Of a DNA stretch of 34,876 nt, positions 6,346 through 34,876 are shown piece after piece. The DNA comes from Actinomycetota bacterium (GTDB lineage Bacteria; Actinomycetota; Actinomycetes; S36-B12; UBA5976). The position numbers and the translations under genes were made by a program. Below the pieces are notes generated by a model. The model worked only from the letters and a program-made list of their open reading frames with translations. It had not been told where the DNA came from and ran no database searches. Position 1 is the stretch's first letter. Each line of letters starts with the position of its first letter. The DNA lies in NCBI GenBank assembly GCA_027730605.1, contig JAQCGN010000007.1, forward strand, positions 1-34,876, read 5' to 3'.

Positions 6346-6346
6346 G

Positions 6347-15448: not shown

Positions 15449-17304
15449 TTTGCATACCACCTTTGAAAAATGAGAAAACTCCACAGTTCCTTACGGTAAT
15501 CATACCTGCCACTTAAATGCTGACGTTGCATTTGATTAATCAAAACATGGTCAAATAAGCCTTGATTATTCAAGTATGTGGGATTCATAAAATCTAGAAG
15601 TTGATCTTTTAATTCAAAATTCAACCATTTTGCTACTGGAACCCCAAGGCCATGTTTATTTTTTGCGATTAAGTAATCTGGAAGATACTTTCTCAGTACA
15701 TTTTTTAATATGTTTTTTGAGCCAATCCTACTTAATCTATGATTATCAGGAATTCGATTTACGAACTCAAACAAATCCACATCCAACAAAGGTGACCTTG
15801 CTTCAAGGCCATATCGCATGGTTGCACGGTCTACTTTAACTAAAACGTTATCACGCAAGTATGTAGCTAGATAACCGTATGAAATTTGTTGAGACTTTGA
15901 TTGAATTGAACCAAGAGATTCTAGTTCACTGAATATTCTTTTTTGTAATAGAGAATCGACGTTTGATATCTCGATAGATTTAATCAATTTTGGCAAATCT
16001 CTCCTAGTAAATGCGCCCCTCCACTCAAAATCTCTAAACCAGTAATCTTTTTCGTTTAATCCTCTACTTATTCGTTGAGCCTTGAAACCTAAATCAAAAT
16101 AGTTTCCCCTAGAAGGAATTTGATTAAGTATAAATTTGGTTGTACTAAAAAATGGTTTAAATACTTTCATGAGTTCCACATAGTTGTGAGCAATAAAATT
16201 AGGGTACCCCAAAAAGAGTTCATCGCCCCCATCGCCGGTCAACACTACATCAACATGCTCTTTGGCATATTTTGAAAGAATTAATTGGGGGATGATAGCT
16301 GGATCGGCTAATGGCTCATCGATACATTCGATAACAGAGTCTAATGATTCTTGTGCTTTTCTACTTACTATAGGTAACTCAATTATTTGATAACCAAATG
16401 AGTTAGCAATAGATTTTGCAGCAGCACTTTCGTCGTATGAATCATCGTCAAATTTTGCTGTAAAAATCTTTACATCTTTTCTACCCAGCGCAGAAATTTT
16501 CGCCAAAATTGTTGCACTATCAATTCCACCGGATAGAAATAAACCTATAGGCACATCGGCAATTAACCTTTTTTTTACCGAATCTCCAATTTTTAGATCT
16601 ACTTGATCAACTAAATTATTTTTATTGATACTCATGATTTCTAAATTGGGCTTCCAAAATGATGATTTGGTAATATTATGATTCTTATCTACTACAAGAA
16701 AATGACCGGCTTCAACTTTATAAATATTTGAATATATTGTTCCTGTATTTCCTACCGATTCTAATGAAAAATACTCAATCATCGAATCTGTGTTAATTTT
16801 TAATATATTTTTATGTACTTCTGCAATAGTCTTAATCTCTGATGAAAATATAAAAGAATTTTTATCTTGAAAAAAGTGGAGCGGTTTCTTTCCTATAGAA
16901 TCTCGTGCCAAAATTAAATTCTCATTATTTGAATCCCAAAGTGCTACCGCAAACATTCCCCTCAGTCTGCTAAAAATATTTGTTCCCCATTGTCGATAAC
17001 CATGAATAACAACTTCAGAATCAGAGTTTGATTTAAATTTGTGGCCTAATTGAATTAATTGTGACCTTAACTCGCGGTAATTATAAATCTCGCCATTGAC
17101 TATTCCAACCAATTGAGAATCATTAGAAAATATTGGTTGATTACCTTGGTCTAAATCTAGAACAGACATTCTTCGAAAAGCCAAACTTACGAACCCATCT
17201 TCGTATTCTCCTGAGTCGTCAGGACCTCGATGAATTAAAGTTTGAGAAAGTTTTTTCAACAATTCTCTATTTGGTTGGCCTAGAAAACCTGCTATTCCAC
17301 ACAT
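15436..17304 (-). CDS. asnB: Asparagine synthase-like glutamine amidotransferase
   Basis: A 622-residue protein with an N-terminal class II glutaminase domain: catalytic Cys2 in MCGIAGF, IHRGPDDSG at 24-32, NGEIYNYRELR at 70-80, and SDSEVV. A C-terminal ATP-pyrophosphatase domain carries the PP-loop FLSGGIDSAT at 256-265 and LTGDGGDELFLGY. Family members transfer ammonia from glutamine to a carboxylate through an adenylate. Length and domain order fit AsnB. Paralogues are common in surface-polysaccharide loci, where they may amidate sugar acids, and this gene is coupled to a glycosyltransferase, so a glycan role is as likely as asparagine synthesis. An ACAGGAA site precedes the ATG. Confidence 0.9.
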   Translation of the reverse strand: MCGIAGFLGQPNRELLKKLSQTLIHRGPDDSGEYEDGFVSLAFRRMSVLDLDQGNQPIFSNDSQLVGIVNGEIYNYRELRSQLIQLGHKFKSNSDSEVVIHGYRQWGTNIFSRLRGMFAVALWDSNNENLILARDSIGKKPLHFFQDKNSFIFSSEIKTIAEVHKNILKINTDSMIEYFSLESVGNTGTIYSNIYKVEAGHFLVVDKNHNITKSSFWKPNLEIMSINKNNLVDQVDLKIGDSVKKRLIADVPIGLFLSGGIDSATILAKISALGRKDVKIFTAKFDDDSYDESAAAKSIANSFGYQIIELPIVSRKAQESLDSVIECIDEPLADPAIIPQLILSKYAKEHVDVVLTGDGGDELFLGYPNFIAHNYVELMKVFKPFFSTTKFILNQIPSRGNYFDLGFKAQRISRGLNEKDYWFRDFEWRGAFTRRDLPKLIKSIEISNVDSLLQKRIFSELESLGSIQSKSQQISYGYLATYLRDNVLVKVDRATMRYGLEARSPLLDVDLFEFVNRIPDNHRLSRIGSKNILKNVLRKYLPDYLIAKNKHGLGVPVAKWLNFELKDQLLDFMNPTYLNNQGLFDHVLINQMQRQHLSGRYDYRKELWSFLIFQRWYAKWMN

Positions 17305-17371
17305 ATATTCCTGTCCAGTTTTCTATTTCTAGGCAAAATACCACGACCTAACCACAATCTAGACTAATGTA

Positions 17372-17400
17372 TAAACAATTTTATTAACAAGGCTTACAAT
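17372..17400 (+). promoter_or_regulatory. Candidate promoter of the epimerase gene
   Basis: TAAACA (17372-17377) lies 17 bases before TACAAT (17395-17400). This would give a short leader of about 25 bases containing GAGGA before the GTG at 17431. Confidence 0.35.
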
Positions 17401-17430
17401 AAGTTTAATGTCTCGAATGAGGATCTTTTT

Positions 17431-18363
17431 GTGATTAAAGTAGTTGTGACTGGAGCTTGTGGTTTTATTGGTTCTGCTATTACAGAAAAACTTATAAGCC
17501 AGGGATACTTTGTAGAAGGAATCGATAACCTTGATAATAACTTATATAGTAAAGAGGTTAAAGAAAAAAGACTTTCAAATTTACTTAATTTAAATAATTT
17601 TTCATTCAGTAATCTTGATTTAGCGATAGATAATCTTGATCAATCAATTGAGGGTTCTTCATATGTTATTAATGAAGCGGCATTACCTGGACAAGTTTTA
17701 AGTTGGGAAATATTTCCTAAATATGTTTCGGCTAATATTCTTGCAGTTGAAAAACTCCTAGAGAAATGCTTGAAATATAAAGTGAAAAAAGTAGTTCAAG
17801 CTTCTACATCATCTGTCTGTGGAAAGTTTGCAGTTGGAAATGAGGCAATACCAACAAATCCGATATCACCATACGGAATAACCAAATTGGCAGCTGAAAA
17901 CTTATATTATGCATTAGGTCTTAACTCTGATTTAAACTTTGCTATCTTAAGGTATTTTTCTGTTTATGGTCCAGGACAAAGACCCGACATGGCTGTTCAT
18001 AAGTTTTTAAAATTAATAAAAAGTAAGGGTGAGCTAAATATTACTGGTGATGGAACTCAAAGACGAGACCTAACATTCATTTCAGATGTAGTAGACGCGA
18101 CAATTTCTAGCATGAAATTTGAAGAGAGTGGTCAAATTTTTAATATCTCAGGAGGTAAGCAATATTCTTTAAATGAAATAGTTAATAAATGTTTTGAAGT
18201 AGTTGGTACTAAAGCAAATATAAATTACGTGAAAAGGCCAAAAGGAGATCAAGAGGAAACTTTTGGTGATAACTCAAAAGCTAGATTAAAACTGGGTTTT
18301 GACCCTAAAGTGGATTTAATACTAGGTTTACAGAAGCAACTAAGTAGTATGGCTAATGAATGA
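17431..18363 (+). CDS. NAD-dependent sugar epimerase/dehydratase (extended SDR)
   Basis: A 310-residue nucleotide-sugar enzyme. The NAD-binding motif TGACGFIG is at 7-14, a Ser/Thr-rich catalytic strand QASTSSVCG at 123-131, and the catalytic YGITK pair Y148/K152. It also has RYFSVYGPGQRPDM and a C-terminal GDNSKARLKLGFDP, typical of UDP-glucose 4-epimerase-like proteins. Substrate is undetermined (UDP-hexose or UDP-hexuronate). The start is GTG with GAGGA seven bases upstream. Its stop overlaps the next gene as ATGA, so it is coupled to the membrane protein. It diverges from the asnB-like gene across about 125 bases. Confidence 0.9.
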   Translation: MIKVVVTGACGFIGSAITEKLISQGYFVEGIDNLDNNLYSKEVKEKRLSNLLNLNNFSFSNLDLAIDNLDQSIEGSSYVINEAALPGQVLSWEIFPKYVSANILAVEKLLEKCLKYKVKKVVQASTSSVCGKFAVGNEAIPTNPISPYGITKLAAENLYYALGLNSDLNFAILRYFSVYGPGQRPDMAVHKFLKLIKSKGELNITGDGTQRRDLTFISDVVDATISSMKFEESGQIFNISGGKQYSLNEIVNKCFEVVGTKANINYVKRPKGDQEETFGDNSKARLKLGFDPKVDLILGLQKQLSSMANE

Positions 18364-20423
18364 ATTTAGAAAAAACACTTGAGAGTACCAGAAGAACTTA
18401 TCCTTACATATTCTTAATTTTAATAAATCTTATAGTTTTTTATAAATATTGGTTAGGAATTTCAACCCCACCATGGGATTTTTTAGGTGGCGGAATGGTT
18501 GAGCAATACAGATTTTATAAAGATGGAGGTTTTTTTAGCCCACCTTCATGGTTTCCTTACGCGTGGTTTGGAATCCCTGAATATCAAATGGTTCAGGATG
18601 GTGGCTGGTTCATTCCAGTTTGGATAACAGCTGAAATTTTTGGATGGTATCCAGCAAATGCTGCCCGCGTGCAAGCTTTGCTAGTTCTCTTTGGTGCGAT
18701 TGGTATGTATAAACTTTCATTTACTTTTGTTAAATCAAAATATTTGGCTACTATAGCTGGAACTTTATATTTATTTATACCTGTTTTTTACTCAAATGCA
18801 CAGCATTATTCTTCTGTTAGATCAGCTGCTTTTCTGCCTTGGGTTTTATTTTTCATTCATCCCGAAAATATTTCAAAAACACGTATTTCGGTTTTTTTAG
18901 GTTCCTTAGTTATTTTCCAAACAATTACAGGATCGTATCCTGGTAATTTAATTGCAACTTTTTATACGGTACTGATTTACTTTTTTGTTGTATGTATTTT
19001 TTCAAGCAATAATAAATATCAATATTTGAAATCACTATCTATAATGAGTTTAGCTGGTATTTCAATGGGTCTAATTCGTTATTTGCCAGTTATTCAATTG
19101 CAAGAAACTTTTCCAAGTGATGTGGGAAATCAAGCAGGAGTAAGGATTTATAATTTAGCGTATTTAATTTTCCCATTTATTGGAAAAGATTTGCCATATG
19201 AAGATCCAACTCTGAGAAGTATTTATATTGGTAGTTTTGCGCTGGCTGTTATTTTTTATTTGAATTATAAAAATAAGAAGTTAATTCCTTGGCTTACACT
19301 TTTTATTATGTCAACTATTCTTATGCTTTCAAATACTTTAAACACAGGTATTCGTGAGATTATTCCATTTATTAACATTAGTCGATTTGCAATTACTGAT
19401 TGGCGAAATACCTTCAATTTATCAGTAATTATGATTGTTATTTTAACAATAAAATATATTCAGGATCAAAAAGTTATAGACCACTTCAAGACTAGAATTT
19501 TGGCATTAGCAACATTGTTGGTCTTTATTAGCATTACCGCGTATCAGTCAGGGCAGTCAATTATAAATCTAGCGTTCTATTCTATCTTAACCATTATATT
19601 CTTTTTTTACTTTAAAAAAACCAGCATAAAAAGTAATTTAAGTAAATCTCTAACACTTGTTTTGATATCTTCTTCTGCAGTGCTTTTTGTTTTTCAAAAC
19701 AGTTTTTCGTGGATGACAACAGTAAAAGAACAGAATTTTAATATCTATAATAACACTTTTACCAATGTATTTGAGTACGTAAAATATCCTTTGAAATCTA
19801 GACCAGCAAGAGTTAGTTTTTTACCAACGCCCCTGACCCCTGAAAATTATAAAAATGACCAAAGATACAACAGGTTCTGGTTAACAGGAGGTTTTGGTGC
19901 CTTTGGCTATCACAACATTAAAGACATAGAGTCCTATTCAGCTCTTTTCCCGCGCTTAGAAAAAGAAAGTGATCCGGTCGTAAATTTTTTGCTTGCAAAA
20001 GGTAAGCAAGTAATTACAGATGGTAATCAAAACTTGGAACAAAAGCTTACAGATTGCACTGCTTCTATTTCTTGCCCCAATGATTTGGGAATAGAAGTTG
20101 CGCAACAAGTATTTGATAAAGAGCGTGAAGTTTTTAAAATTAAGTCTGAAAGAAGTTTCACAATGATACAAAATGAAATATATAGTCCAATCTGGTCTGG
20201 CACAGTTTGTGACGATCTAAAATGTGACAGTATTGCAACAAGTTCAACCCTTAAATCATTGAGGACATGGGATCTTCCTCCAGGTGATTACCTATTCACA
20301 ACTGAAGCAAAAACTCCACTGAATAATCAAAGGTGGATTCTATTTTGGTTTGGTTTGTCAATTGCTTTACTTTCAACTGCTAGGAGAAAATCTACTTTAG
20401 AATTGATGTACCACCGTCAATAG
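18360..20423 (+). CDS. Large multispanning membrane protein, YfhO-like / putative GT-C glycosyltransferase
   Basis: A 687-residue protein with roughly a dozen hydrophobic helices, a large soluble region of about 180 residues near the C-terminus (roughly 470-650), and a last helix just before a basic tail (STARRKS). Topology and composition resemble the YfhO family and GT-C glycosyltransferases. The first external loop is rich in Trp, Pro and Gly with acidic residues (PPWDFLGGG, MVQDGGW), the usual site of catalytic acidic residues in GT-C enzymes. It is translationally coupled to the epimerase and near a GtrB-like enzyme, so it may transfer a lipid-linked sugar outside the membrane (inference). 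The 3' end overlaps the convergent SDR gene by 32 bases. Confidence 0.7.
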   Translation: MNLEKTLESTRRTYPYIFLILINLIVFYKYWLGISTPPWDFLGGGMVEQYRFYKDGGFFSPPSWFPYAWFGIPEYQMVQDGGWFIPVWITAEIFGWYPANAARVQALLVLFGAIGMYKLSFTFVKSKYLATIAGTLYLFIPVFYSNAQHYSSVRSAAFLPWVLFFIHPENISKTRISVFLGSLVIFQTITGSYPGNLIATFYTVLIYFFVVCIFSSNNKYQYLKSLSIMSLAGISMGLIRYLPVIQLQETFPSDVGNQAGVRIYNLAYLIFPFIGKDLPYEDPTLRSIYIGSFALAVIFYLNYKNKKLIPWLTLFIMSTILMLSNTLNTGIREIIPFINISRFAITDWRNTFNLSVIMIVILTIKYIQDQKVIDHFKTRILALATLLVFISITAYQSGQSIINLAFYSILTIIFFFYFKKTSIKSNLSKSLTLVLISSSAVLFVFQNSFSWMTTVKEQNFNIYNNTFTNVFEYVKYPLKSRPARVSFLPTPLTPENYKNDQRYNRFWLTGGFGAFGYHNIKDIESYSALFPRLEKESDPVVNFLLAKGKQVITDGNQNLEQKLTDCTASISCPNDLGIEVAQQVFDKEREVFKIKSERSFTMIQNEIYSPIWSGTVCDDLKCDSIATSSTLKSLRTWDLPPGDYLFTTEAKTPLNNQRWILFWFGLSIALLSTARRKSTLELMYHRQ

Positions 20424-21156
20424 ATATACTTTGTCCTATTAGATAATCAGTCAAACTTCCCGAAGCACAATTAAAAACTACTTTTGCAATATCTTCAACT
20501 TCCCCAATATTTCCTAATGGTATGTTTTCTGAAACAAATTGCTCAAACAACTCTTCAGAATCTCCTTTTCGCCTGTTCCAAATACCATCTTCGGTCAATA
20601 TGTGACCTGGATTAATAATATTTACTCGTATCTGATTTCTGGATAGTCTCAATGCCTGATACTTTGCAAAAATATTTAGTGCACGTTTTGAGTAAGAATA
20701 AGCAAATGGTGCTCTCACGTTAAAATTATGTGCGATACTTCCAATGAAAATAATTGAACCTCCATTTTTACTATTTTCAATTAGTGGCAAGAGGAATTTA
20801 AACTGATTTACGGTATTTAAGAAATTTAATTTAATTAATTCTAAATTGCTTTCAAAAGTTGTGTCTATACCTCTAGTTCCAGTGCCAGAACCTATATTAA
20901 AAACAATACAGTCAAGTCTTCCCCAATTCTGATTAATATATTGAAATAATTCATTAGCTTTAGAATTGTTACATAAATCTGCAACCAATCCAATTGCAGA
21001 ATTTCCTCTGATGTTATTTAAATTATTTTGAATATCTTTCATTGCTTTTTGATTTCTTCCCGTAATGCAGACATCCCAATTCTCAGTGTGAAATTTTTCG
21101 AGAATTCCTTTACCAATTCCTTTAGTTGACCCTGTTACTAAAACCTTTTGGGTCAT
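20392..21156 (-). CDS. Short-chain dehydrogenase/reductase
   Basis: A 254-residue classical SDR. The cofactor motif TGSTKGIGKG is at 8-17, catalytic Ser in FIGSIAH, and Y-x-x-x-K as YSYSK in the PFAYSYSKRALN segment. The ending ISIDGGTSIL is typical of the family. The usual NNAG motif is replaced by FNIGSGTG. It is the last gene of the minus-strand sugar operon; its start overlaps the TIM-barrel isomerase stop by 4 bases. Probably it oxidises or reduces a sugar hydroxyl or keto group; the substrate is unknown. Confidence 0.85.
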   Translation of the reverse strand: MTQKVLVTGSTKGIGKGILEKFHTENWDVCITGRNQKAMKDIQNNLNNIRGNSAIGLVADLCNNSKANELFQYINQNWGRLDCIVFNIGSGTGTRGIDTTFESNLELIKLNFLNTVNQFKFLLPLIENSKNGGSIIFIGSIAHNFNVRAPFAYSYSKRALNIFAKYQALRLSRNQIRVNIINPGHILTEDGIWNRRKGDSEELFEQFVSENIPLGNIGEVEDIAKVVFNCASGSLTDYLIGQSISIDGGTSILK

Positions 21157-21986
21157 TTAAATTGCTCTAAAAGTTCTTGAGTGTATAAAAGTTGTTTTTT
21201 TGCAACCTCAATATCATTTTCCCCGCGCGCAGCCTGCATCGTTATCCCTCCGGCATATCTAATTTCATTAAGTTTCGAAAAAACAAGTTCAAAATTAGCA
21301 TTTCCCGAACCAAGTGGTACCGTCGTGCCCTTTAATTCTCGATCTTTCACATGAACATTTAGAATTTTGTGTCCATAGGCTTCAAGTTCTTTAACTGGGT
21401 CATAGCCTAATGAGGCACTGTTTCCTATGTCATAATTTGCTTGAACATGCTCTCGATTAATTCTTTCGAGTAAATTCTTAAAACTATTTGCATCTAAATC
21501 TGTTTCTAAAGATATTTTCATTCCAATTTCTTTTGCTAAATCAAATGCCTCCTGCATAGCATTAATGAGTTCATTCTTTTCATGTTCATTCTTGATTGAA
21601 GATGCATCTACAAACGGAATCTCTACACCAATTGCTCCAACTTCTTTACCATTTAATAATAGGTTATTTAAATATTCTATATTCTGCCTTAGAGTAATTT
21701 TTGACATTCGCACAAATGGTTGTTGCATAAAAATATCGGCACAAATAAAATCAATTCTTACGTCAGTTTCTGCGATTATATCTTTAATTTGCTCAATTCC
21801 AACCTCAGACATTAACGCATTAATCTCAATTGGATTTTCCACTATCCATTCGATTGCTGTGTAACCAATTTCCCTGGCAATATGAAATTCCTTTTGCCAA
21901 GTTTGCGCTGGGTAAGCTTGGATCTTTCCATTTATGCGTGGAGATAGTCGTCCTTGCATGATGCCGATTTGTTTAGTTAGGCTCAT
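21153..21986 (-). CDS. TIM-barrel sugar (phosphate) isomerase/epimerase, xylose isomerase-like fold
   Basis: A 277-residue protein starting near GIMQGRLSPR, with likely metal-binding carboxylates and His in ISLETDLD, ANYDIGNS and LNVHVKDR. These are characteristic of the AP endonuclease family 2 / sugar phosphate isomerase superfamily. The PLGSGNANFE segment after HVKDR is also typical. Substrates in the superfamily range from hydroxypyruvate to inosose and tagatose, so none can be assigned here. It lies 14 bases after the NeuB-like gene and overlaps the following SDR gene. Confidence 0.85.
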   Translation of the reverse strand: MSLTKQIGIMQGRLSPRINGKIQAYPAQTWQKEFHIAREIGYTAIEWIVENPIEINALMSEVGIEQIKDIIAETDVRIDFICADIFMQQPFVRMSKITLRQNIEYLNNLLLNGKEVGAIGVEIPFVDASSIKNEHEKNELINAMQEAFDLAKEIGMKISLETDLDANSFKNLLERINREHVQANYDIGNSASLGYDPVKELEAYGHKILNVHVKDRELKGTTVPLGSGNANFELVFSKLNEIRYAGGITMQAARGENDIEVAKKQLLYTQELLEQFK

Positions 21987-22000
21987 AATATTTTATGAAA

Positions 22001-22828
22001 TTACCAGTAGCGAAGTTTGGCTGCCACAGCCTTCTCAGCTTCTCCAAATTCTTTTTTTCCGCTACCTAAAGATTTCTCAACACTTCGCACTCCGCCAACT
22101 AACTGTTGAAGTCCTCGTTTTTCTAACGAGGCTGATTGATCAGATCCATACATTGCTCTATCAAGGGTGATGTGTCTTTCAATAGCGGTGACACCCATTG
22201 CTGCTGCTGCGATGGATGGAACTGGAGACACTTCGTGTCCGCTGTATCCAACTGGGCAATTATATTTTTCACTTAAAGTTTTTATCATATTTAGATTTAG
22301 ATCCTCTTCTGGGCAAGGGTAAACAGAAACTGTATGCATCAATGTGAATGCGCAACCTGCTTCTCTAAATATGGAAACAGCCGCATCTATTTCTGTGAAA
22401 GTTGCCATTCCTGTTGAAATAAATGTGTGAATCTTTTCAGATGCAACTTCTTTTAACAAAGGAATGTGAGTAAGCATTGCCGAAGCAATTTTGTTGTACT
22501 TACAGTTAAATTGTCTTAAAAATTTTTGACTTTCAACATCCCAAGCAGAAGCAAACCATTCAATACTTTTATTTTTGCAGTATTTGTCTATTTCTTTATA
22601 TTCATTTAGACCAAATTCTAAGCCTACTTTTTGCTCACGAGTAGTTTTGCCCCATGGACTTTCTCTCGGTGTATCTAGAACTGCTGGAGTGTAAACAATG
22701 TCAATTGTTCTTTTTTGAAATTTAACAGCATCACAACCTGCATCTTTTGCCATGTCAATCAGTTGTTTAGCAATGTCAATACTTCCGTTATGATTGATGC
22801 CAATTTCAGCAATAACAAAAATAGACAT
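22001..22828 (-). CDS. NeuB-family synthase (N-acetylneuraminate synthase-like) without SAF domain
   Basis: A 275-residue PEP-dependent aldol synthase. Motifs follow the NeuB TIM barrel: AEIGINHNGS (7-16), AVKFQKR, FISTGMAT, MHTVSVYPCPEEDLNL, VGYSGHE, and ERHITLDRAMYGSDQSASLE with the metal-binding His. The family condenses phosphoenolpyruvate with an N-acetyl-aminosugar to make sialic, legionaminic or pseudaminic acids. Usual length is about 340-350 with a C-terminal SAF (antifreeze-like) domain that closes over the neighbouring subunit's active site. Here the protein stops right after the barrel. It lies inside an operon of sugar-modifying enzymes, but no CMP-sugar synthetase gene is in the window. 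The product is unknown. Confidence 0.85.
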   Translation of the reverse strand: MSIFVIAEIGINHNGSIDIAKQLIDMAKDAGCDAVKFQKRTIDIVYTPAVLDTPRESPWGKTTREQKVGLEFGLNEYKEIDKYCKNKSIEWFASAWDVESQKFLRQFNCKYNKIASAMLTHIPLLKEVASEKIHTFISTGMATFTEIDAAVSIFREAGCAFTLMHTVSVYPCPEEDLNLNMIKTLSEKYNCPVGYSGHEVSPVPSIAAAAMGVTAIERHITLDRAMYGSDQSASLEKRGLQQLVGGVRSVEKSLGSGKKEFGEAEKAVAAKLRYW

Positions 22829-22873
22829 CTAATCCTCCAAGGACTTTAGAAAGTAAGTTTCCTTAATGAAAAC

Positions 22874-23692
22874 TTACCAAACACTTCTACCTCCGTCGGC
22901 TGAAATCACCGCTCCAGTCAAGTATGAAGAAGCCTGTGAGCATAAAAAGGCAACTAAGGCTTGATATTCATGAGGTTTGGCCATTCTGGCCATCGGAATT
23001 CTCTTGGTTATCTCATCTAAAAATTCTTGTGATTGATTTACTTCTACTCCTCCTGGACAAATCGCATTAGCTCTAACCCCTTGTTCTGGCCAATATGTGG
23101 CTAAATATTTTGTTAATCCGATTAATCCAGCTTTTGCAATGGAGTATCCAACCGGCTTTACAGGTTGCTCATTATCTTTTAATCCTTTTTGTTTATATAA
23201 GCGTTGATCGGGACCAAGTATTGCTAATTCTGAAGAAATATTCACAATTGTTCCGGATCCATTTTTTGCAAAATGAGTACCGAAAGTTTTACTACAAAGC
23301 ACTGCACCTAACAAATTTACATCTAATTCTTTTTGTAGATTAAGCAAAGTAACATCTTCAAATCTTGTTTTGTCTAAACCTTTATCGCTAACAACTGGGT
23401 TAATTGCCGCATTGTTAATTAAGGAATCAACTTTTCCGTATTTATTTACTAAATCTTTTAGTAAATTATCAATTGATTCTTGATTTGTTACATCTAGGTG
23501 ATATCCAACAGACTTTCCACCTATTTTATGAGCAACATTTTCAGCTGCTTTCAAATCTAGATCGGCAATAATAGCAACCCCTCCACAATGATTTATCGCT
23601 TCACCATGTTCCAAGCCAAGTAATCCAGCACCACCAGTAATCACCACTACTTTATTTTCTAAATCAAACCAATAGTTTTTTTCTTTTTTCAT
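22874..23692 (-). CDS. Short-chain dehydrogenase/reductase in sugar operon
   Basis: A 272-residue classical SDR. The cofactor motif is TGGAGLLG at about 20-27, with NNAAIN, catalytic Ser in NISSELA, YSIAK as the catalytic Tyr/Lys pair, and a C-terminal ISADGGRSVW. The insert between Ser and Tyr (DQRLYKQKG and on) is longer than in many SDRs and is seen in relatives from nonulosonate loci such as those with PtmA-like proteins; that comparison is from memory. Its ATG shares one base with the SIS gene stop (TAATG), so the two are coupled. It probably acts on a sugar intermediate. Confidence 0.87.
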   Translation of the reverse strand: MKKEKNYWFDLENKVVVITGGAGLLGLEHGEAINHCGGVAIIADLDLKAAENVAHKIGGKSVGYHLDVTNQESIDNLLKDLVNKYGKVDSLINNAAINPVVSDKGLDKTRFEDVTLLNLQKELDVNLLGAVLCSKTFGTHFAKNGSGTIVNISSELAILGPDQRLYKQKGLKDNEQPVKPVGYSIAKAGLIGLTKYLATYWPEQGVRANAICPGGVEVNQSQEFLDEITKRIPMARMAKPHEYQALVAFLCSQASSYLTGAVISADGGRSVW

Positions 23693-24300
23693 TATTTAAC
23701 TATCTTCAACTTTCCTTTTTCAATTAAGTAATCTTCAACTAATTCCATGACTATGTGACCAGCAGTGATATGCAGTTCTTGAATTCTTCCCGTAATTGAA
23801 GTTGGGGCAATAAATGAATAATCGCAAAGTGGTAAGGCAGGTCCCCCACTTCCACCAAGAAACCCAACAGTGACAATTCCAAGTTCTTTAGCCTTAGTCA
23901 AAGCTTTTAAGATATTAGGAGATTTGCCAGATGTCGTGATCCCGATGAGCACATCTCCTCTATTTCCCAGAGCTTCCACCATTCGCTCAAAAATAACTTC
24001 AAAACCCAAATCGTTTCCGCAAGCAGTTAGCGTGGAGGTATCCATTGCTAAGGCAATTGCGGGCAGTGTTTGTCTTGTGACATCAGGTCGAAGTCGGATG
24101 AGTAACTCCGCAGCTAAGTGTTGGGCGTCAGCTGCACTACCGCCATTCCCACACAAAAGAATTTTGTTTCCATTTTCAATAGCACCACCACAAATTTTTC
24201 CGATTTCAACCAAAGGGGCAATATGCTTATCCAACACTTCTTGGCGTGCACGAATGCCTTCGGCCAAAGCACTTTTAACAACCTCTACCGAATTGGACAT
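23692..24300 (-). CDS. SIS-domain sugar phosphate isomerase, GmhA-like
   Basis: A 202-residue protein with the phosphosugar-binding signature LLCGNGGSAADAQHLAAEL starting at about residue 48, then ITTSGKSPNILKAL and an H-x-x-x-E-like LHITAGHIVMELVED. These match phosphoheptose isomerase GmhA and related DiaA proteins. GmhA converts sedoheptulose 7-phosphate to a heptose 7-phosphate. The ATG at 24300 puts the CGNGGS motif at the usual distance; a GTG at 24315 and a TTG at 24348 are in frame but less convincing. It leads the sugar operon, so it could supply a heptose or another ketose-derived sugar to the SDR and NeuB-like steps (inference). Confidence 0.88.
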   Translation of the reverse strand: MSNSVEVVKSALAEGIRARQEVLDKHIAPLVEIGKICGGAIENGNKILLCGNGGSAADAQHLAAELLIRLRPDVTRQTLPAIALAMDTSTLTACGNDLGFEVIFERMVEALGNRGDVLIGITTSGKSPNILKALTKAKELGIVTVGFLGGSGGPALPLCDYSFIAPTSITGRIQELHITAGHIVMELVEDYLIEKGKLKIVK

Positions 24301-24425
24301 AAATCTAGTTTTCACCGACTCCTTGTGCTTAATTTCTCCTATAACCAAACGCTATACCCTGGGACCTGAGTTTCAAGTGATAATGTGGCGACTAGAGCAG
24401 TATTCCCATCAATTAAGAGGTAAAA

Positions 24426-25253
24426 ATGTCTAAAATGACCAAAGCACTCGTGGCATTAATTTTCTTCGCAACTCAAGCAATTGTAGTTGCTCCATCAAAT
24501 GCACTTCCAACTTTACACAAAAAGCAAACAAGTAATGTTAAAGCTTTATTCGCAGCGTTTGCTACAAGTAATCCAGACAAGATCGCAGCAGCTTCAGTAA
24601 AGTACACAAAAGCCGGATCGGCAGCTCGCAATTTTGCTGAAATGGTCAAGAATAATCACGCTACAATTAGATACTACAAATCTATTAATGTTTTTGGTAT
24701 GCCCTCTGGATTAACTGTCACCCCAGAAGCAAAAGGAAAATCAACATTAAAAGGTAAAACTGTAACCTTAAATAGTGTTAATGATGCATTTGATGGCAAA
24801 TATACCGCTTTTACATTTGATTCCAAAGGTAAAATATCTAACTTTAAAGTTGCCACAAATGCTGGAAAATCAAGCCGAAAGGTTTCTGATCGAATCTTTG
24901 CAATTAAGCAATCTGTAACATCTGGTGCAATGTTTGTTACCGGTGGTTATGTTTATAAGCAACCAGATGCAAAACTGTTTGTTCAAATGCAGGTTAAAAA
25001 CAATTCGGCCTCGTTGAAATCTTGGTCATATGCCAATGGTCGATTTGCCTCCGCCGAAAATAAGTATTACGCATCTTCGATTTCTCCAGTTGGATGCTTG
25101 TACCCAGGACAAACAGCATTTATGCAGGCAACGGTGTCTGACACACCAGTTGTTGTTGCAGGTACTGGTGCAGCATATGAAGCTCCAACATTTGAAGGTT
25201 GTGGAAATGGATCATCAAATGCCTCAAGTGTTTTCCGTTTCATCACTGGCTGA
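24426..25253 (+). CDS. Secreted protein of unknown function (paralogue of 33498-34313)
   Basis: A 275-residue Lys/Ser/Ala-rich protein with a Sec signal peptide (hydrophobic residues of about 7-22, likely cleavage after SNA at 26). There are no other membrane segments, lipobox or recognisable enzyme motif. The C-terminal half has KSWSYANG, a SPVGC Cys and an EGCGNGSSN Cys, possibly a disulfide. The same layout occurs in the secreted protein at 33498-34313 (KSWSYAKG, GPLGC, LSCTGNNSN). An AAGAGG site precedes the ATG. It diverges from the SIS gene and lies 29 bases upstream of fabD, although a functional link to fatty-acid synthesis seems unlikely. Function unknown. Confidence 0.8.
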   Translation: MSKMTKALVALIFFATQAIVVAPSNALPTLHKKQTSNVKALFAAFATSNPDKIAAASVKYTKAGSAARNFAEMVKNNHATIRYYKSINVFGMPSGLTVTPEAKGKSTLKGKTVTLNSVNDAFDGKYTAFTFDSKGKISNFKVATNAGKSSRKVSDRIFAIKQSVTSGAMFVTGGYVYKQPDAKLFVQMQVKNNSASLKSWSYANGRFASAENKYYASSISPVGCLYPGQTAFMQATVSDTPVVVAGTGAAYEAPTFEGCGNGSSNASSVFRFITG

Positions 25254-27525: not shown

Positions 27526-28758
27526 ATGTCTCGCCGCGTAGTTGTTACGGGTTTGGGAGCACTAACCCCAATTGGTAAAAATGTTTCAGAAACTTGGACT
27601 AACGCCTTAGCCGGTAAATCAGGCATTATAAAAATAAGTCAACCTTGGGCAGAAGGTTTAGCAGCACAAATTGCAGGTCTTGTCACAGTTGATCCTTTTG
27701 AGGTTTTAGACAGAGTCAGTGCTCGTCGAATGGATAGAAGTACGCAATTAGGTGTTATTGCTGTTAAGGAAGCTTGGGTTGACGCAGGATCTCCTGATAT
27801 TAATAAAGAGCGTTTAGGTGTTTTTTTTGGAACCGGAATTGGTGGGTTGACTACTGTTTTGGAACAATATGACATTTTAAATTCACGCGGACCGGATAGA
27901 GTTAATCCTTTGACGGTGCCAATGATTATGCCTAATAGTGCTGCGGCAATGGTTGGCTTAGAAGTAGGCGCAAGAGCAGGAGTACATTCTCCAGTTTCTG
28001 CTTGTGCAACTAGTGCTGAAGCAATTGCGGGTGCACTAGAAATGATTAGAAATAACAGAGCAGACATAGTTGTAGCTGGTGGAACCGAAGCTTGCGTTAA
28101 TCGTTTAGCCATTGCTGCTTTTGCATCAATGCGTGCCCTTTCGACCAAAAATAATGAACCACAAATAGCATCTCGTCCTTATGACATTGATCGAGATGGG
28201 TTTGTGATGGGTGAAGGTGCGGGAGCATTAATTTTGGAAGAAGAAGAACATGCATTAAAGCGTGGTGTAAAAATTTATGGAGTTGTTTCAGGTGCGGGAA
28301 TGTCATCTGATGGCTATCACATTGCAGCACCTGAACCAGAGGGTGCTGGAGCATCCAGAGCAATGGTAGCTGCCTTAAATGATGCAAACGCGAAAGCAAC
28401 AGATGTTGCCCACGTGAATGCGCACGCAACTTCGACTCCAGTTGGAGATATTGCTGAATATAAAGCTATGAAATCAGCGTTAGGTAATGCGCTAGACAAT
28501 GTAGTTGTCACTGCAACTAAATCAATGACTGGACATTTACTGGGTGGAGCAGGCGCAGTCGAATCTGTGTTCACAATAATGGGGCTCAAAGAAGGTTTGA
28601 TTCCTCCAACATTAAATTTAAAGAATCAAGACCCTGAGATTAAAATCAATGTTGCAAAAGACGAACCCTATAAACTTTCAGCGAACGCAAATTTTGCTTT
28701 AAATAATTCATTTGGTTTTGGTGGACATAACGTTTGTATTGCTTTTTCTAAGAATTAA
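27526..28758 (+). CDS. fabF: Beta-ketoacyl-ACP synthase II
   Basis: A 410-residue chain-elongating condensing enzyme. The active site is C160 in VSACATSAEA, H300 in NAHATSTPVGD and H337 in KSMTGHLLGGAGA, with K332 in the same motif. The C-terminal NNSFGFGGHNV is also conserved. A GGGG motif precedes the ATG. It is the last gene of the fab operon; its TAA stop interlocks with the TAA of the convergent DUF3145 gene in a shared TTAA (4-base overlap). Confidence 0.96.
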   Translation: MSRRVVVTGLGALTPIGKNVSETWTNALAGKSGIIKISQPWAEGLAAQIAGLVTVDPFEVLDRVSARRMDRSTQLGVIAVKEAWVDAGSPDINKERLGVFFGTGIGGLTTVLEQYDILNSRGPDRVNPLTVPMIMPNSAAAMVGLEVGARAGVHSPVSACATSAEAIAGALEMIRNNRADIVVAGGTEACVNRLAIAAFASMRALSTKNNEPQIASRPYDIDRDGFVMGEGAGALILEEEEHALKRGVKIYGVVSGAGMSSDGYHIAAPEPEGAGASRAMVAALNDANAKATDVAHVNAHATSTPVGDIAEYKAMKSALGNALDNVVVTATKSMTGHLLGGAGAVESVFTIMGLKEGLIPPTLNLKNQDPEIKINVAKDEPYKLSANANFALNNSFGFGGHNVCIAFSKN

Positions 28759-29276
28759 CCAGTTTTACTAATCCACTTAACAATTGAGCCTTGATGAGAT
28801 CTTCTAAACGGTTCGAGATCTTCATCCCATGGTGTACCCAAAAGAAATGCTAACTCGACTTCAAAAGGTTCATTTTCAATTCTAGTTCTTTCTAAAGCTG
28901 ATCGAAGTCTTGTCTCTGTGACAATAGTTTCACCTAAAGAGTTAATATCAGCCCTAAATATTCCTAAGTTTGGAGCAACTGCGTATCTTTCTCCACTTAT
29001 TTTTCCATTACCATCTTGAAAAACCTCGAGTCTTAACTTGGGCCATTTGCTCAAAACAGAAACTATTCGAGAACTCAAACTAATTGGTCCATGCCAATTT
29101 AAATTTGCCGAGAAAGCACCAGGTGCAATTTCTTGGGAACGCCAATCTAAATCTATTTTACTTTGAAATATGTCACTTAATGCCCAATCAACGTGCGTGC
29201 AAATACTTTTTGGGCATGAATATATTTTCATTTCACCTCGAACTTCTTGAGGTGAAACACTCACCACGTATTCCAT
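28755..29276 (-). CDS. DUF3145 protein
   Basis: A 173-residue soluble protein of the actinobacteria-restricted DUF3145 family. Recognisable features are CTHVDWAL (26-33), DLDWRSQEIAPGAFSANLNW, a GERYAVAPNLGIFRADI core, and the C-terminal LLGTPWDEDLEPFRR. Members are typically found next to the fab operon, as here, but have no known biochemical role. An exceptionally strong GGAGG site lies five bases before the ATG. Cys21 and Cys26 are present in the N-terminal part (CPKSIC). Confidence 0.88.
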   Translation of the reverse strand: MEYVVSVSPQEVRGEMKIYSCPKSICTHVDWALSDIFQSKIDLDWRSQEIAPGAFSANLNWHGPISLSSRIVSVLSKWPKLRLEVFQDGNGKISGERYAVAPNLGIFRADINSLGETIVTETRLRSALERTRIENEPFEVELAFLLGTPWDEDLEPFRRSHQGSIVKWISKTG

Positions 29277-29337: not shown

Positions 29338-30087
29338 CTACTTGTCTATGTTACTTTCCTTAGACACGCCGTTTTTAACACGGTGTCGAATAGTGTCCCA
29401 AATTATTTCACGAGCGTACTCTAGGCCATTTACGTGAGAGACTTCATCACCATAAAAAGTTGGTATAGGGATCTCGACGATTCGTTTTTTGGAAGCCAGT
29501 AATTGCAGAATTATTTGGGTGTCAAATCGAAAACCATTGCTAAGTGCACCTAAACCTAACTCTTTCAAGGTGTCAACTTTGTAGGCTCGATATCCACTAT
29601 GCCATTCCGAGAAGTTTTGACCTACCAATTTATTCTGAAGAAAGGTCAAAACTTGATTACCGACCCACTTGTATTTTGGCATTCCCCCTTTCAAGGCGTC
29701 TTTTTTATTAATCATTCTCGAGCCAAATACAGCATCTGCGTTACCCCTAATTAGTGGTTCAATCATTTGAGGTATGAATTCAGGAGCATATTGTCCGTCA
29801 GCGTGAAGTAATACCACAATATCCCAATTGTTTTGAATTGCCCATGAATAACCAAACTTTTGATTTCCTCCATACCCTAAATTAATTGGTTGAACTATAA
29901 CTTGGATTGGTAGACTTGAAGATTTTGCATACGCGTCCGCTTTTATTGAAGTTAAATCCTTAGAGTTATCATCACTTATCAAAATGGAATGAATCTTGGG
30001 TGTAAAAGTCTCTGGAATTCTACTTAGCGTAGATTCAATAGTAGATTCAGCATTATAAGCTATTATCAATATTCCAATCTTATTCAT
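29338..30087 (-). CDS. GT2 glycosyltransferase, DPM1-like
   Basis: A 249-residue GT-A fold enzyme without membrane segments. It has GILIIAYNAEST at 5-16, ISDDNSKD with nucleotide-binding Asp39/Asp40, and LLHADGQYAPEF with the metal-binding Asp97. The C-terminal part has HSGYRAYKV, FRFDTQI and EIPIPTFYGDEVSHVNG, typical of dolichyl/polyprenyl-phosphate mannose synthase-like proteins. Such enzymes make lipid-linked monosaccharides used as donors by GT-C membrane transferases. It is the last gene of an operon with two large membrane proteins and overlaps the preceding one by 4 bases. Confidence 0.88.
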   Translation of the reverse strand: MNKIGILIIAYNAESTIESTLSRIPETFTPKIHSILISDDNSKDLTSIKADAYAKSSSLPIQVIVQPINLGYGGNQKFGYSWAIQNNWDIVVLLHADGQYAPEFIPQMIEPLIRGNADAVFGSRMINKKDALKGGMPKYKWVGNQVLTFLQNKLVGQNFSEWHSGYRAYKVDTLKELGLGALSNGFRFDTQIILQLLASKKRIVEIPIPTFYGDEVSHVNGLEYAREIIWDTIRHRVKNGVSKESNIDK

Positions 30088-31787
30088 TTATTGAAGTCCC
30101 ACACTAAGTACTTTTCATCAACATATTGCATTTCTCCAACAACTTTTGGTTTGGTAAATTCATAATCTTGTTCTGCCATGAAATTAATAACACTATTCAT
30201 TGAAGCACGATCACTCACCCAATAAACTCTTGGGTCTTCAATTATTGATTGAATGATATTCATAGGATCTAGTCCTAGTTTCTCGGCTCTCTGGTCCCAA
30301 TGAGGCGAGAAATTATGCCAGCCGAATGTAAAAATTCTATTTTCAACTTCAAACTTTTCAAATTCATATGGCGAAATCCAATTATTTCTAAATTGAGAGG
30401 CATTTCCAACAAATATTGAGTCTTTTGGAAACTTACTTAGATACTCAACCTGACTTAACCAGAACACATTAGGTGCGCCTGCTACTTTAAATCTTAAATA
30501 TTGGCCTTGAGGAATTGACTGATTTATTATAAAAACTAGAACTATAAGACCAATTATAAAAAGACTTGAATTTTGAACATTTTTTTCTATTTTAGGAGCA
30601 AAAAAATTACTTACCAAACTCACTAAAATAGCTAAAAATATCACAGAGACTTGAACTCTTTCTGGCTGTCGTAAAAAACCAGCAACATAGATCATGATTA
30701 GGTACAAGATTAGATACGCTATTCCAGCCAACATCAAATAAGAAAATATATTTGAAAATGACTTGAATAGATATAAAATGAAAAATAATAAAATAAGCAT
30801 TAATATTCCATCAAATCCAAAATTAGTTTTCGGATTAAAAATTTTCAAATGGGATTCAGATAAAAATTTATATAGATTTACTTCTCGGTTTTGGTTCGTA
30901 TTTAAAATTAGTGACTTCAGCTTATCAACACTATAATACGACCTATCAATTGCATTATAGTTTACAAATACTTCGGCTGATGATTTAGTCCACCCAAACT
31001 TTGTCGGATTTTCAAGAAGAAGTCTTTCTGGCTCGTTTGCTTGAATCTTGTATCTTGCAGCCTCCCAATCTTTATAGCTACTCCAATTTGAATTATTTTT
31101 ATAGTAGTTTCGTTCTACGATAGTATCTATAGTGCCAGCAAATCCTAAGATAAATATGAATGCGAGAAAAATTTTATAATTATTTTTAATAAATGACTTT
31201 TGGTGCCATATTGAATAAGCTAAAAAAGGGGTAGCTACAGCCGTCCCAAGTAAAAAAGATTCTGGCCTCATAAAGTAAGCAAATAGGTATACTAAAAGCA
31301 GTATATACGATCTAAAATTCAATTTATTTAATTGTATGATTTTGGCTAAATAAATAAGAGAAGAAAAACTAAGTAAAACTGAGGCTGCAGTATAAGTTGG
31401 GTTTGGGATAAACCAAAGTAGGTGCAAAAAAGAAGTAATTGCAAAACCTGCGATTGAGAATAAATCATTTGATCTAGACGCTAAAATTCCAATTAGTAGC
31501 CATGAAAAAACTGTTGAAGAAAGTAAGACAATTGAAAACCAACTAATCTCTGGTAAGAATTTATATAGACTTGAAACTATGAATCCAAAAGTAATTTTTG
31601 GGGTTGCTGAACCTCTCACCATAAACTCTTGTTGACCTGTGTAGAATCCCGATAACCAATTTTCCATAATCACGTCGTCGTTAACGCCAAAAGTTTGTTT
31701 TGTCGAATTGAAGATAATTGCTGAACTAGCCAATAAGTATGCAAGAACTAGTAAGTCTCTTATGACATTATTAAAGTATCTAGTCAT
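30084..31787 (-). CDS. Multispanning membrane protein, putative GT-C-type transferase (tandem paralogue 1)
   Basis: A 567-residue protein with a first helix at about 10-27, then an external loop with VNDDVI (N36, D37, D38), LSGFYTG and RGSATPK, and about ten more helices. A soluble C-terminal domain of about 150 residues contains FVGNASQFRNNW, FGWHNFSPHW and EDPRVYWVSD. No known family was recognised with confidence. The layout of a membrane helix, an acidic loop, a helical bundle and a C-terminal domain fits GT-C glycosyltransferases that use polyprenyl-phosphate sugars, and a DPM1-like gene is coupled to its 3' end. It is clearly paralogous to the protein encoded just upstream, whose gene it overlaps by 8 bases. 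Function is inferred. Confidence 0.72.
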   Translation of the reverse strand: MTRYFNNVIRDLLVLAYLLASSAIIFNSTKQTFGVNDDVIMENWLSGFYTGQQEFMVRGSATPKITFGFIVSSLYKFLPEISWFSIVLLSSTVFSWLLIGILASRSNDLFSIAGFAITSFLHLLWFIPNPTYTAASVLLSFSSLIYLAKIIQLNKLNFRSYILLLVYLFAYFMRPESFLLGTAVATPFLAYSIWHQKSFIKNNYKIFLAFIFILGFAGTIDTIVERNYYKNNSNWSSYKDWEAARYKIQANEPERLLLENPTKFGWTKSSAEVFVNYNAIDRSYYSVDKLKSLILNTNQNREVNLYKFLSESHLKIFNPKTNFGFDGILMLILLFFILYLFKSFSNIFSYLMLAGIAYLILYLIMIYVAGFLRQPERVQVSVIFLAILVSLVSNFFAPKIEKNVQNSSLFIIGLIVLVFIINQSIPQGQYLRFKVAGAPNVFWLSQVEYLSKFPKDSIFVGNASQFRNNWISPYEFEKFEVENRIFTFGWHNFSPHWDQRAEKLGLDPMNIIQSIIEDPRVYWVSDRASMNSVINFMAEQDYEFTKPKVVGEMQYVDEKYLVWDFNK

Positions 31788-33489
31788 TCTTAATGAATTT
31801 CCAAACTACGTATTCTTCTCCAAGGTGTGACATAACACCCACTTTAACGGGATTGCTGAATCTATAATTCTTTTCTCGCATAAATTGGCCGATATAATCC
31901 ATAGTCATGGCATCTGAAACCCAATAAACTCTTGGATCCTCGATTATAGAATCAATTAATTTATCAGGATTTAAGCCAAGATTTTCGACCCTTTTCACCC
32001 AATGAGGGGAAAAACTGTGCCACCCGAAGGACAAAATACGATTTTCTACTTCATCTCTATCTGAAAGGTAGGGAGTGCGCCAGTTATTTCTAAACTGAGA
32101 TGCATTACCTACAAATATAGAGTCATCAGGAAAACTTGATAAGTATCGAATTTGTTCGTTCCAGAAAAATACTGTTGACTTCTGAATTTTAGTCATAAGA
32201 TTTCTTGCTTGACTAGCTGAATTTACTACAATTAAAACTAAAATCAATAAACTTAAAAGATGTAAGTCGTTTAGTTTTGACTTTGCTATATCTTTTTCTT
32301 TAGGATCGAAAATAAATGCTACAAAACTTAATAAAATAGATAAGAAAATTACCGAGACCTGGACTCGTTCAGGTTGGCGAAGAAAGCCTGCAACATAAAG
32401 CATAATTATATATAAAATCCCTAAACAGAAAAATGTCAAGATAAAATAGTTTTTTATTTGGGGAATTGATAAAACTAGAAATAGTAAATAAAATAGAGGA
32501 ATTAGACTGATAAGATTCGGCCACTCCCAATTAGATCTGCTATCAAAGATTTTTTGATGTGCTTCTAGTAAAAAAATTGCATCAATATTTATTTTGGTAT
32601 TATCAAGATCTCGAGTAAGTTTTTGTAATTTATCTGTATTAAAACTGTCTTTATCAAGAAAATTATAAGATTTAAAGAGTTCAACCTCTGGAGAGGACCA
32701 ATTGAATTTAGATGGATTCTCACTAATCAACTTTTCGGCAGCATTACCTTGAATTTCATATCTTGCGCTCTCCCATTCTCTATAGCTAGCCCAATTAGTA
32801 TTCTTTTGATAAACAATTTTTTCTAATCCTGAATCTAGTAATATAAAAGCGCCAGTTAATATAATAAGAATTGAAAGTTTTTTGTATGTAATATTGATTC
32901 TTGCAGTTGTCTTTTTTATGCCATAAATAATAAATGGAATCGAAACTGCTGTTCCTAAATAGAAAGATTCCGGTCTTATGAAATATGCAAAAACGTACAA
33001 CAATACTATGAACACGACCGTTAGACTAAATCTTTGATTAAGCAGACTATCCGAAAAATAAATTAGTGCCGAAAAACTCAAAATAACCGCGGCAGCTGTA
33101 TAAGTTGGACTTGGGATAAACCATATTAAATGTAAAAATGAAATTAATGCAAAAGAAATTAAAGCAAAAGCACTTTTACTTTTTAGGGTTAACAATCCTA
33201 ACAGATACCAACTTAATACGGTTAATATCAAGAGAATTATTGAAAACCAATTAACCTGTGGTATCCAGTCATATAAACTTGAGACAAATAGACCAAAAAT
33301 TAATTTTGGAGTAGCCGAACCTCGTATCATAAATTCTGGTTTTCCCGTGTAAGCACCAGATAACCATTCCTGAATAATCACATCATCATTGACGCCATAA
33401 ATTTGACCAGTAGTAGAAAACACAAAAATTGTAACAACTACAAAATAAGCAATAAGTAAAACGTTATTTCTTAAATTACTGCGCAGCAA
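31780..33489 (-). CDS. Multispanning membrane protein, putative GT-C-type transferase (tandem paralogue 2)
   Basis: A 569-residue protein matching its downstream neighbour over the whole length: VNDDVI (N34, D35, D36), LSGAYTG, RGSATPK, PSPTYTAA, FRQPERVQVSVIFL in divided form, FVGNASQFRNNW, and EDPRVYWVSD. Hydrophobic helices alternate with short loops up to about residue 415, followed by a soluble C-terminus. The middle region (about 210-310) is the most divergent, which may reflect different sugar or acceptor specificity. It starts 8 bases after the secreted-protein gene, so secretion and putative glycosyl transfer appear co-expressed. Function not known. Confidence 0.72.
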   Translation of the reverse strand: MLRSNLRNNVLLIAYFVVVTIFVFSTTGQIYGVNDDVIIQEWLSGAYTGKPEFMIRGSATPKLIFGLFVSSLYDWIPQVNWFSIILLILTVLSWYLLGLLTLKSKSAFALISFALISFLHLIWFIPSPTYTAAAVILSFSALIYFSDSLLNQRFSLTVVFIVLLYVFAYFIRPESFYLGTAVSIPFIIYGIKKTTARINITYKKLSILIILTGAFILLDSGLEKIVYQKNTNWASYREWESARYEIQGNAAEKLISENPSKFNWSSPEVELFKSYNFLDKDSFNTDKLQKLTRDLDNTKINIDAIFLLEAHQKIFDSRSNWEWPNLISLIPLFYLLFLVLSIPQIKNYFILTFFCLGILYIIMLYVAGFLRQPERVQVSVIFLSILLSFVAFIFDPKEKDIAKSKLNDLHLLSLLILVLIVVNSASQARNLMTKIQKSTVFFWNEQIRYLSSFPDDSIFVGNASQFRNNWRTPYLSDRDEVENRILSFGWHSFSPHWVKRVENLGLNPDKLIDSIIEDPRVYWVSDAMTMDYIGQFMREKNYRFSNPVKVGVMSHLGEEYVVWKFIKND

Positions 33490-33497
33490 TTGTTAGA

Positions 33498-34313
33498 CTA
33501 CTGAACAATAAATGGAACTTTTATTTCGTTTGAATTATTTCCTGTGCAACTCAGAAAAAATGGTATTACAAATGTAGAAGTTGTATTTTTGACAATTGTT
33601 GCAACAGAGGATGTTGTAGCCTCTATGACAGTTTTACCGCCTGTGTTAGTGCACCCCAAAGGACCCGTAACAACGTTATGATTAACTCCACTTGCATCTC
33701 GAATGTATCCCTTTGCGTATGACCAGGATTTAAATCCACCAAAATTGTTATTAAAATCTACTTGTATAAATGAATAATTGGTGGGTAACTTCCAGTGAAT
33801 ACCACTTTTTATTTCAGTTCCACTTTCATTGTAATTTATTGTCAAATATTTAATATTACCTTTTATAGAGATAAATTTATTATTTGTCGTTTTGACTTTA
33901 AAACTTGAAATCTTTTTAGATTTTGAAAGAACAAAATCTTTATAGGATCCATCTATTGTGTCAAATGAAGAATCTAAAGTTATGACTCCACCTTTAGACT
34001 TAGATACTTTACCTGGTGCGTCATGTGCTGTTGGACTAACATTGCCATGAATATCTAAAATTTTTAAGTACTCAGTTCCGTTAAAATGATTTATAATCAT
34101 CTTAGTAAATACATCTGCACTTGAATTTGGAACAACATATTTTTTCCTGGCAGCTTCAATTTTTAATGGTTGGGCACTTTTGATCGCCGCAAAGTACTTG
34201 TCAATATTCGATGACGGATGTGCAATGGCAACTTGGGAATTGAGTGCCATCATGATCGCCACAATTGGCGCAATAGTTTTCATTTTGGAAACTTTATCGG
34301 CAAACCTCATCAT
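33498..34313 (-). CDS. Secreted protein of unknown function (paralogue of 24426-25253)
   Basis: A 271-residue protein with a signal peptide (hydrophobic residues of about 13-30, cleavage probably after AIA at 31). The mature part is rich in Lys, Ser, Asn and Thr, with no recognised domain. A C-terminal region with KSWSYAKG, GPLGC and LSCTGNNSN aligns with the 24426 protein, including two conserved Cys. The ATG at 34313 or the next codon has AGGA about eight bases upstream; an internal Met11 is possible. A weak promoter (TATAAG at 34344-34339, with TTCGAG inside the tRNA T arm as -35) could drive it, or it may be read through from the tRNA. It leads the operon of the two large membrane proteins and could be their target or partner (inference). 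Confidence 0.78.
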   Translation of the reverse strand: MMRFADKVSKMKTIAPIVAIMMALNSQVAIAHPSSNIDKYFAAIKSAQPLKIEAARKKYVVPNSSADVFTKMIINHFNGTEYLKILDIHGNVSPTAHDAPGKVSKSKGGVITLDSSFDTIDGSYKDFVLSKSKKISSFKVKTTNNKFISIKGNIKYLTINYNESGTEIKSGIHWKLPTNYSFIQVDFNNNFGGFKSWSYAKGYIRDASGVNHNVVTGPLGCTNTGGKTVIEATTSSVATIVKNTTSTFVIPFFLSCTGNNSNEIKVPFIVQ

Positions 34314-34348
34314 CGTCCCATTCCTAGTTTTTCTCTATCTTATATGCG

Positions 34349-34422
34349 TGGGGCGACTGGGGCTCGAACCCAGGACCGACGGATTATGAGTCCGTAGCTC
34401 TAACCAACTGAGCTATCGCCCC
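34349..34422 (-). tRNA. tRNA with CAU anticodon (elongator Met or Ile2)
   Basis: A 74-nt cloverleaf on the minus strand. The acceptor GGGGCGA pairs with TCGCCCC, the D stem is GCTC/GAGC, the anticodon stem ACGGA/TCCGT encloses CTCATAA, and the T stem CTGGG/CCCAG encloses TTCGAGC. The discriminator is A73 and CCA is not encoded. G1 pairs with C72, so it is not an initiator tRNA. Sequence alone here does not separate elongator Met from the lysidine-modified Ile tRNA. Confidence 0.95.
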
Positions 34423-34477
34423 TTAAAATGGCGTTGTTGTGCACGTTGAGGCACAAGTATATGCAACCCTAGTACAC

Positions 34478-34876
34478 GTGAGTTTTACCAAAAAATTTAC
34501 GATTTGGGTGACGATTGCTGAGATATTCCAGCTGCTTTATCTCTGGAATTACTTGCCAATTGCAGAATCAGCCGTTTATGGGACAAATGACGATGCCCTT
34601 ATTGCAAGCATTTCGAGCGGACAATTAACGGGCACCCCCGAAGGACATTTAATATTCATTAATCCAATTCTTAGTTTCCCAATGGCATGGTTGCAGTTAA
34701 TTTTAAGCGATTTAAATATTTATACTTTGGCACTAGTGCTATTAGTTACTCTTTCATTTTCTCTAATATTTGCTTTAATTATGGTTCAAAATAATATGCG
34801 ATATGAATCTAAAATAATATTATTAATTTTTTGGTTTTTATCAACAATAACATTTATTAGTTGGTATGCTCTAGCT
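34478..34876 (+). CDS. Divergent member of the GT-C-like membrane family, cut off by window edge
   Basis: An open frame from GTG at 34478 to the window end gives 133 residues with no stop. An in-frame GTG at 34439 would add 13 residues, but the later start puts the first motif at the same distance as in the relatives. After a first helix (about 8-32) comes VYGTNDDALI (N37, D38, D39), then SISSGQLTG, TPEGHLIF, NPILSFPMAWL and two hydrophobic helices. Spacing and order match the VNDDVI, LSG-x-YTG, PEFM and ATPK-x-x-FG layout of the two tandem paralogues at 30084-33489, though identity is lower. It is transcribed divergently from the tRNA. The remainder lies outside the window. Confidence 0.75.
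   Translation, partial: MSFTKKFTIWVTIAEIFQLLYLWNYLPIAESAVYGTNDDALIASISSGQLTGTPEGHLIFINPILSFPMAWLQLILSDLNIYTLALVLLVTLSFSLIFALIMVQNNMRYESKIILLIFWFLSTITFISWYALA

Follow-up and report, generated by a model that had tools for sequence, protein, structure and literature searches.

Do the GT2 glycosyltransferase gene and the two adjacent membrane-protein genes at positions 29338-33489 of the window, which is the entire contig G000:C36 (34,876 nucleotides) of a small, low-GC, streamlined actinobacterium (genome 1.24 Mb, 88 contigs), form a surface glycosylation module, and which of their neighbors belong to it? We judge that these genes probably constitute an acquired cassette for extracytoplasmic glycosylation, a reading in which the fold, the chemistry, the donor, the acceptor and the flippase step are all predicted from sequence. 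The features on which the argument turns are as follows.

28755-29276, reverse strand: DUF3145 gene (PF11343, E=1e-46), bordering the insertion site of the cassette on the side opposite the secreted gene.
29338-30087, reverse strand: GT2 glycosyltransferase, 249 aa, soluble and DPM1/AglJ/PpgS-like, a putative polyprenyl-phosphate-sugar synthase.
30084-31787, reverse strand: TM-A, a 567-aa GT-C-like membrane protein with NDD at residues 36-38 (31674-31682).
31780-33489, reverse strand: TM-B, its 569-aa GT-C-like paralogue, with a TTG start, NDD at residues 34-36 (33382-33390) and further conserved residues R172 (32974-32976), R375 (32365-32367) and W490 (32020-32022).
33498-34313, reverse strand: signal-peptide protein of 271 aa that flanks the cassette outside the mobile unit and belongs to a multicopy family found throughout the genus.
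34348-34422, reverse strand: tRNA-Met, separating the secreted gene from the third family member.
34439-34876, forward strand: N-terminal 146 aa of a third member of the family, divergent from tRNA-Met, with NDD at residues 50-52 (34586-34594).

The open reading frame listing reproduced the operon order and gene positions reported in a preliminary description of this DNA. TM-B and TM-A overlap by 8 bp, TM-A and the GT2 gene by 4 bp, and 8 bp separate the secreted gene from TM-B, an arrangement of overlapping or near-touching genes consistent with a single transcript. The GC content of TM-A, TM-B and the secreted gene (0.31-0.33, against 0.40-0.43 in the fab genes) is similar to that of the remaining membrane-protein genes of the window, and composition by itself is therefore no proof of transfer. 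A second surface-glycan region lies at 14501-24348 of the window and encodes a TM-anchored GT2, an AsnB-like protein, an NDP-sugar epimerase, SDRs, a NeuB-family synthase, a SIS-domain protein and a 687-aa polytopic membrane protein with no Pfam match.

TM-A and TM-B are 49% identical and 70% similar over 566 residues, in agreement with their earlier description as full-length paralogues. The third copy, which opens at about 34439 on the forward strand and runs off the contig end, matches TM-B pairwise only over the 23 aa of the motif; a profile of the 31-member family nevertheless matches it with E=2e-16 at 34493-34867, which identifies it as a true family relative, and its best single relatives are found in the Lachnospiraceae. 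The proposed divergent paralogue on the other strand thus holds, though cut by the contig end, and the G-x-N-D-D and SG-x-x-TG motifs occur in all three copies, whereas the "Pro-rich block" that had been noted after the first helix proved to be no conserved feature of the family.

Searches of Pfam, NCBIfam and PHROGs returned no model matching TM-A or TM-B above threshold, and none of the 31 family members matches a Pfam model at a meaningful score, including PMT_2 (PF13231) and YfhO. A sequence search of the PDB gave no match for the membrane proteins, and hhalign comparison with PMT_2 (GT-C) proteins yielded a signal no better than that of unrelated membrane-protein controls. The nearest named model is NF047440 ("putative glycosyltransferase"), which describes the LA_3751/LA_3752 family of Leptospira; four of the 31 members weakly match its TM region (best E=1.1e-7), but the best score of 31 bits is far under the cut-off of 200, and the window family is not a member. 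A literature search found no paper on DUF6056, DUF6020 or LA_3751. The membrane family hence appears to be undescribed in the libraries searched (Pfam, NCBIfam, PHROGs), while the kind of system it would belong to is already known.

Close relatives are rare. The order (166 genomes) holds one intact homologue, 24% identical, in the sister genome G005, and a second genome of the same order, G004, carries a probable decayed copy. This copy (contig C22, about 5675-6574; E=1.2e-4) contains ten stops, was left out of the counts as a probable decayed member and has a tRNA-Asn on one side and an E1-type pyruvate dehydrogenase-like gene on the other; a tRNA also adjoins the start of the third copy in the window. 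Elsewhere among the 395 genomes of the class, the family profile found short partial matches only. A match in G465 was rejected as an unrelated membrane protein. A single-protein scan of genome contigs, scans of viral contigs and tblastn against plasmids and phages recovered zero relatives. The seed for the family profile came from scanning a DNA pattern for YG-x-NDD...SGxxTG over the genome contig collection, in which one of nine matches, from a Lachnospiraceae MAG, was real and eight were due to chance. Seeded with this relative, the profile detected members in 20 of 150 Lachnospiraceae genomes; the family is common in some gut bacteria.

The alignment of the 31 members (numbered here after TM-B) shows D35, R172 and R375 to be invariant and D36 to be kept in 30 members, while N34, D36, G45, G49, Y73, T131, R243, D248, N483 and W490 are each retained in about 90% or more. 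Poor conservation of the two first-loop aspartates, which would have spoken against the GT-C assignment of the preliminary description, was accordingly not observed. Hydropathy averaged over the alignment reveals 11 main hydrophobic segments, with TM boundaries placed by eye from the plot. With the N-terminus placed inside, K+R make up 20-33% of each predicted inner loop and 5-10% of the long outer loops. In this topology, the diacid falls within a predicted first outer loop (EL1, between TM1 and TM2) of about 52 aa, R172 within a short outer loop between TM5 and TM6, and R375 within the outer loop between TM9 and TM10, five to six residues before TM10; a predicted EL4 of about 106 aa lies between TM7 and TM8, and the protein ends in a predicted outer C-terminal domain of about 140 residues.

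The published GT-C layout comprises a DD in EL1 and a long EL4 between TM7 and TM8 (PMC7801869; see also PMC8035078, PMC11127046), as well as a strictly conserved EL5 Arg in front of TM10 that binds the lipid phosphate (PMC7801869). By analogy, R375 would be the counterpart of this donor-phosphate-contacting Arg. The same procedure applied to a set of PMT_2 (GT-C) proteins from the same order recovered an Asp that follows TM1 and never varies, a long loop late in the sequence and, eight residues ahead of a late helix, an Arg that is equally invariant. AlphaFold runs from three and four input sequences produced low-confidence models (pLDDT 43 and 38). The GT-C-like architecture proposed for the membrane proteins is supported, on the basis of hydropathy, by the 11-TM EL1/EL4/EL5 pattern, the diacid and the outer Arg residues. 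Comparison with characterized GT-C enzymes (ArnT, PMT/TMTC, ALG6, AftD, GT136) points the same way: these likewise present an 11-TM pattern, a long EL1 with Asp-Asp, a long EL4 between TM7 and TM8, an Arg before TM10 and an outer C-terminal domain, although the window family, with its predicted GT-C fold, has no detectable sequence or profile similarity to the solved members or to PMT_2.

The conserved residues also bear on how the two paralogues might work together. Their adjacent, overlapping genes of equal length, and the tandem family members also present in G574, G703 and G665, are compatible with TM-A and TM-B forming one heterodimer in the manner of Pmt or Emb pairs, in which the two share an active site or one of them acts as a regulatory partner. 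Both copies, however, retain the diacid and both invariant Arg residues, and most homologues are single genes, leading us to regard an arrangement of this kind as unlikely.

The window GT2 matches PF00535 (E=6e-23) and, in both cases under the cut-off, the NCBIfam models for AglJ (3e-22) and PpgS (4e-15), and its best PDB match is the dolichol-P-mannose synthase 5mlz (E=2.4e-10). It aligns with the catalytic domain of AglJ, PpgS and archaeal DPM synthase over most of its length, with scores under the equivalog cut-offs. Hydropathy analysis detected no hydrophobic segment or TM helix in this protein. With its frame overlapping that of TM-A, a candidate polyprenyl-phosphate-sugar synthase is encoded together with a GT-C-like gene.

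We then compared gene neighborhoods (same strand, within 2 kb) at 20 Lachnospiraceae loci with those of 51 long control ORFs, the controls being drawn from stretches of mostly the same genomes and the loci being uncorrected for relatedness, so that the p-values serve as a guide. A GT2 gene neighbors the family at 10 of 20 loci versus 6 of 51 controls (p=0.001), a DegT aminotransferase gene at 10 of 20 versus none of 51 (p=4e-7), and a GNAT acetyltransferase gene at 7 of 20 versus none of 51 (p=6e-5). The possibility that homologues never neighbor glycosyltransferases, which would have undermined the proposed module, is contradicted by the first of these counts; no GT2 lies within 2 kb of the relative in G005, the closest in the genus (24% identity). 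The adjacent Lachnospiraceae GT2s, of about 315 aa, are TM-anchored by a C-terminal hydrophobic hairpin, the same hairpin seen in CsbB/GtrB-type donor synthases. DegT and GNAT genes beside the family suggest that many Lachnospiraceae members may transfer an N-acetylated amino-dideoxysugar; the window cassette carries neither gene, and its sugar may therefore differ. One Lachnospiraceae locus combines genes with the Pfam names DegT, GNAT, GT2, DUF6020, Wzy_C-like, acyltransferase and GtrA, and ABC transporter genes are also carried by Lachnospiraceae loci. Beside the family in the Lachnospiraceae, membrane proteins of the DUF6020 type (PF19484) turn up repeatedly (for instance at 12664-14568 of locus L066) and look like further uncharacterized members of the same glycan loci.

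The mixed content of these loci, with Wzy_C-like, DUF6020, acyltransferase and ABC transporter genes, and the lack of any sequence or profile link to a characterized GT-C enzyme would both be expected if the membrane proteins were instead another polytopic envelope protein (a polymerase, a ligase or a surface-glycan exporter) found within glycan clusters by chance. Yet the invariant first-loop Asp, the invariant outer Arg residues and the 11-TM EL1/EL4/EL5 pattern reproduce the GT-C layout, and direct adjacency to GT2 donor synthases is frequent, which makes this explanation improbable. Architecture and gene context lend good support to the pairing of a putative GT2 donor synthase with a predicted GT-C transferase.

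The secreted protein has a 31% paralogue at 24426-25253 of the window, beside fabD and with no glycosyltransferase genes, and the genome holds additional copies. Every one of the seven genus genomes contains this family (about 270 aa), with one to four matches each and usually several, and all other genera of the taxonomic family lack it. Its distribution does not follow that of the GT-C-like genes, an intact membrane homologue being present in only two of the seven genus genomes. G005 has a relative of the secreted gene (39% over the portion available) that directly adjoins DUF3145-fabF-fabH-fabD; neither a GT2 nor a membrane gene intervenes. This empty site indicates that the mobile unit is GT2-TM-A-TM-B, inserted between the secreted gene and DUF3145. 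The boundary comes from this single comparison, as DUF3145 did not turn up in the five remaining genus genomes. The earlier suggestion that the secreted protein is a dedicated acceptor glycosylated by TM-A and TM-B, attractive insofar as 8 bp separate its gene from TM-B and a shared transcript is probable, is very improbable given the genus-wide spread of its family, the paralogue beside fabD and the G005 gene that abuts DUF3145 with the cassette absent.

Taking as observed the genes, their paralogy, the conserved residues, the topology pattern, the linkage of homologues and the presence or absence of the cassette, we infer the following route for the acquired glycosylation cassette. On the cytoplasmic side, the GT2 would move a sugar from a nucleotide donor onto polyprenyl phosphate, and a putative flippase would turn the lipid-linked sugar over. 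TM-A and TM-B would be GT-C-type transferases of 11 membrane helices each, in which the NDD of the first outer loop would serve catalysis and outer Arg residues would bind the phosphate of the lipid; the long loop between TM7 and TM8 and the C-terminal domain would both lie outside. The two proteins would put the sugar on a surface glycan or glycoprotein, whether jointly as a pair or separately, each with an acceptor of its own. The cassette itself has no flippase, and no GtrA flippase was found in the seven genus genomes; GtrA is present near one Lachnospiraceae family member.

Multi-component transmembrane glycosylation systems (CsbB/GtcA/YfhO, GtrA/GtrB/Gtr(type) and GacI/GacK/GacL) likewise place a GT2 donor synthase beside a polytopic protein, likewise carry a diacid in the first outer loop of that protein and, as the cassette would, produce a variable, strain-specific surface decoration. 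In contrast with these systems, the window GT2 is soluble and has no C-terminal TM hairpin, the cassette is devoid of a flippase in a genus whose seven genomes yielded no GtrA, and the Pfam models PMT_2 and YfhO both fail to match the membrane protein.

A broader proposal, which we hold to be evenly balanced between right and wrong, is that these proteins define a GT-C family that is as yet unclassified and marked by a diacid-Arg-Arg signature of its own. The family would be widespread in the Lachnospiraceae beside DegT plus GNAT amino-dideoxysugar genes and polyprenyl-phosphate-sugar genes, and a streamlined actinobacterium would have acquired it in the form of a swappable three-gene cassette that alters its surface glycan. 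If this is true, a membrane family with no Pfam or NCBIfam name, encoded by roughly one in seven of the sampled Lachnospiraceae genomes, would gain a function open to testing through mutation of three to five residues. It would also show a small-genome actinobacterium swapping its surface decoration by means of a compact GT2-GTC-GTC cassette, and such swapping may bear on phage sensitivity and strain diversity.
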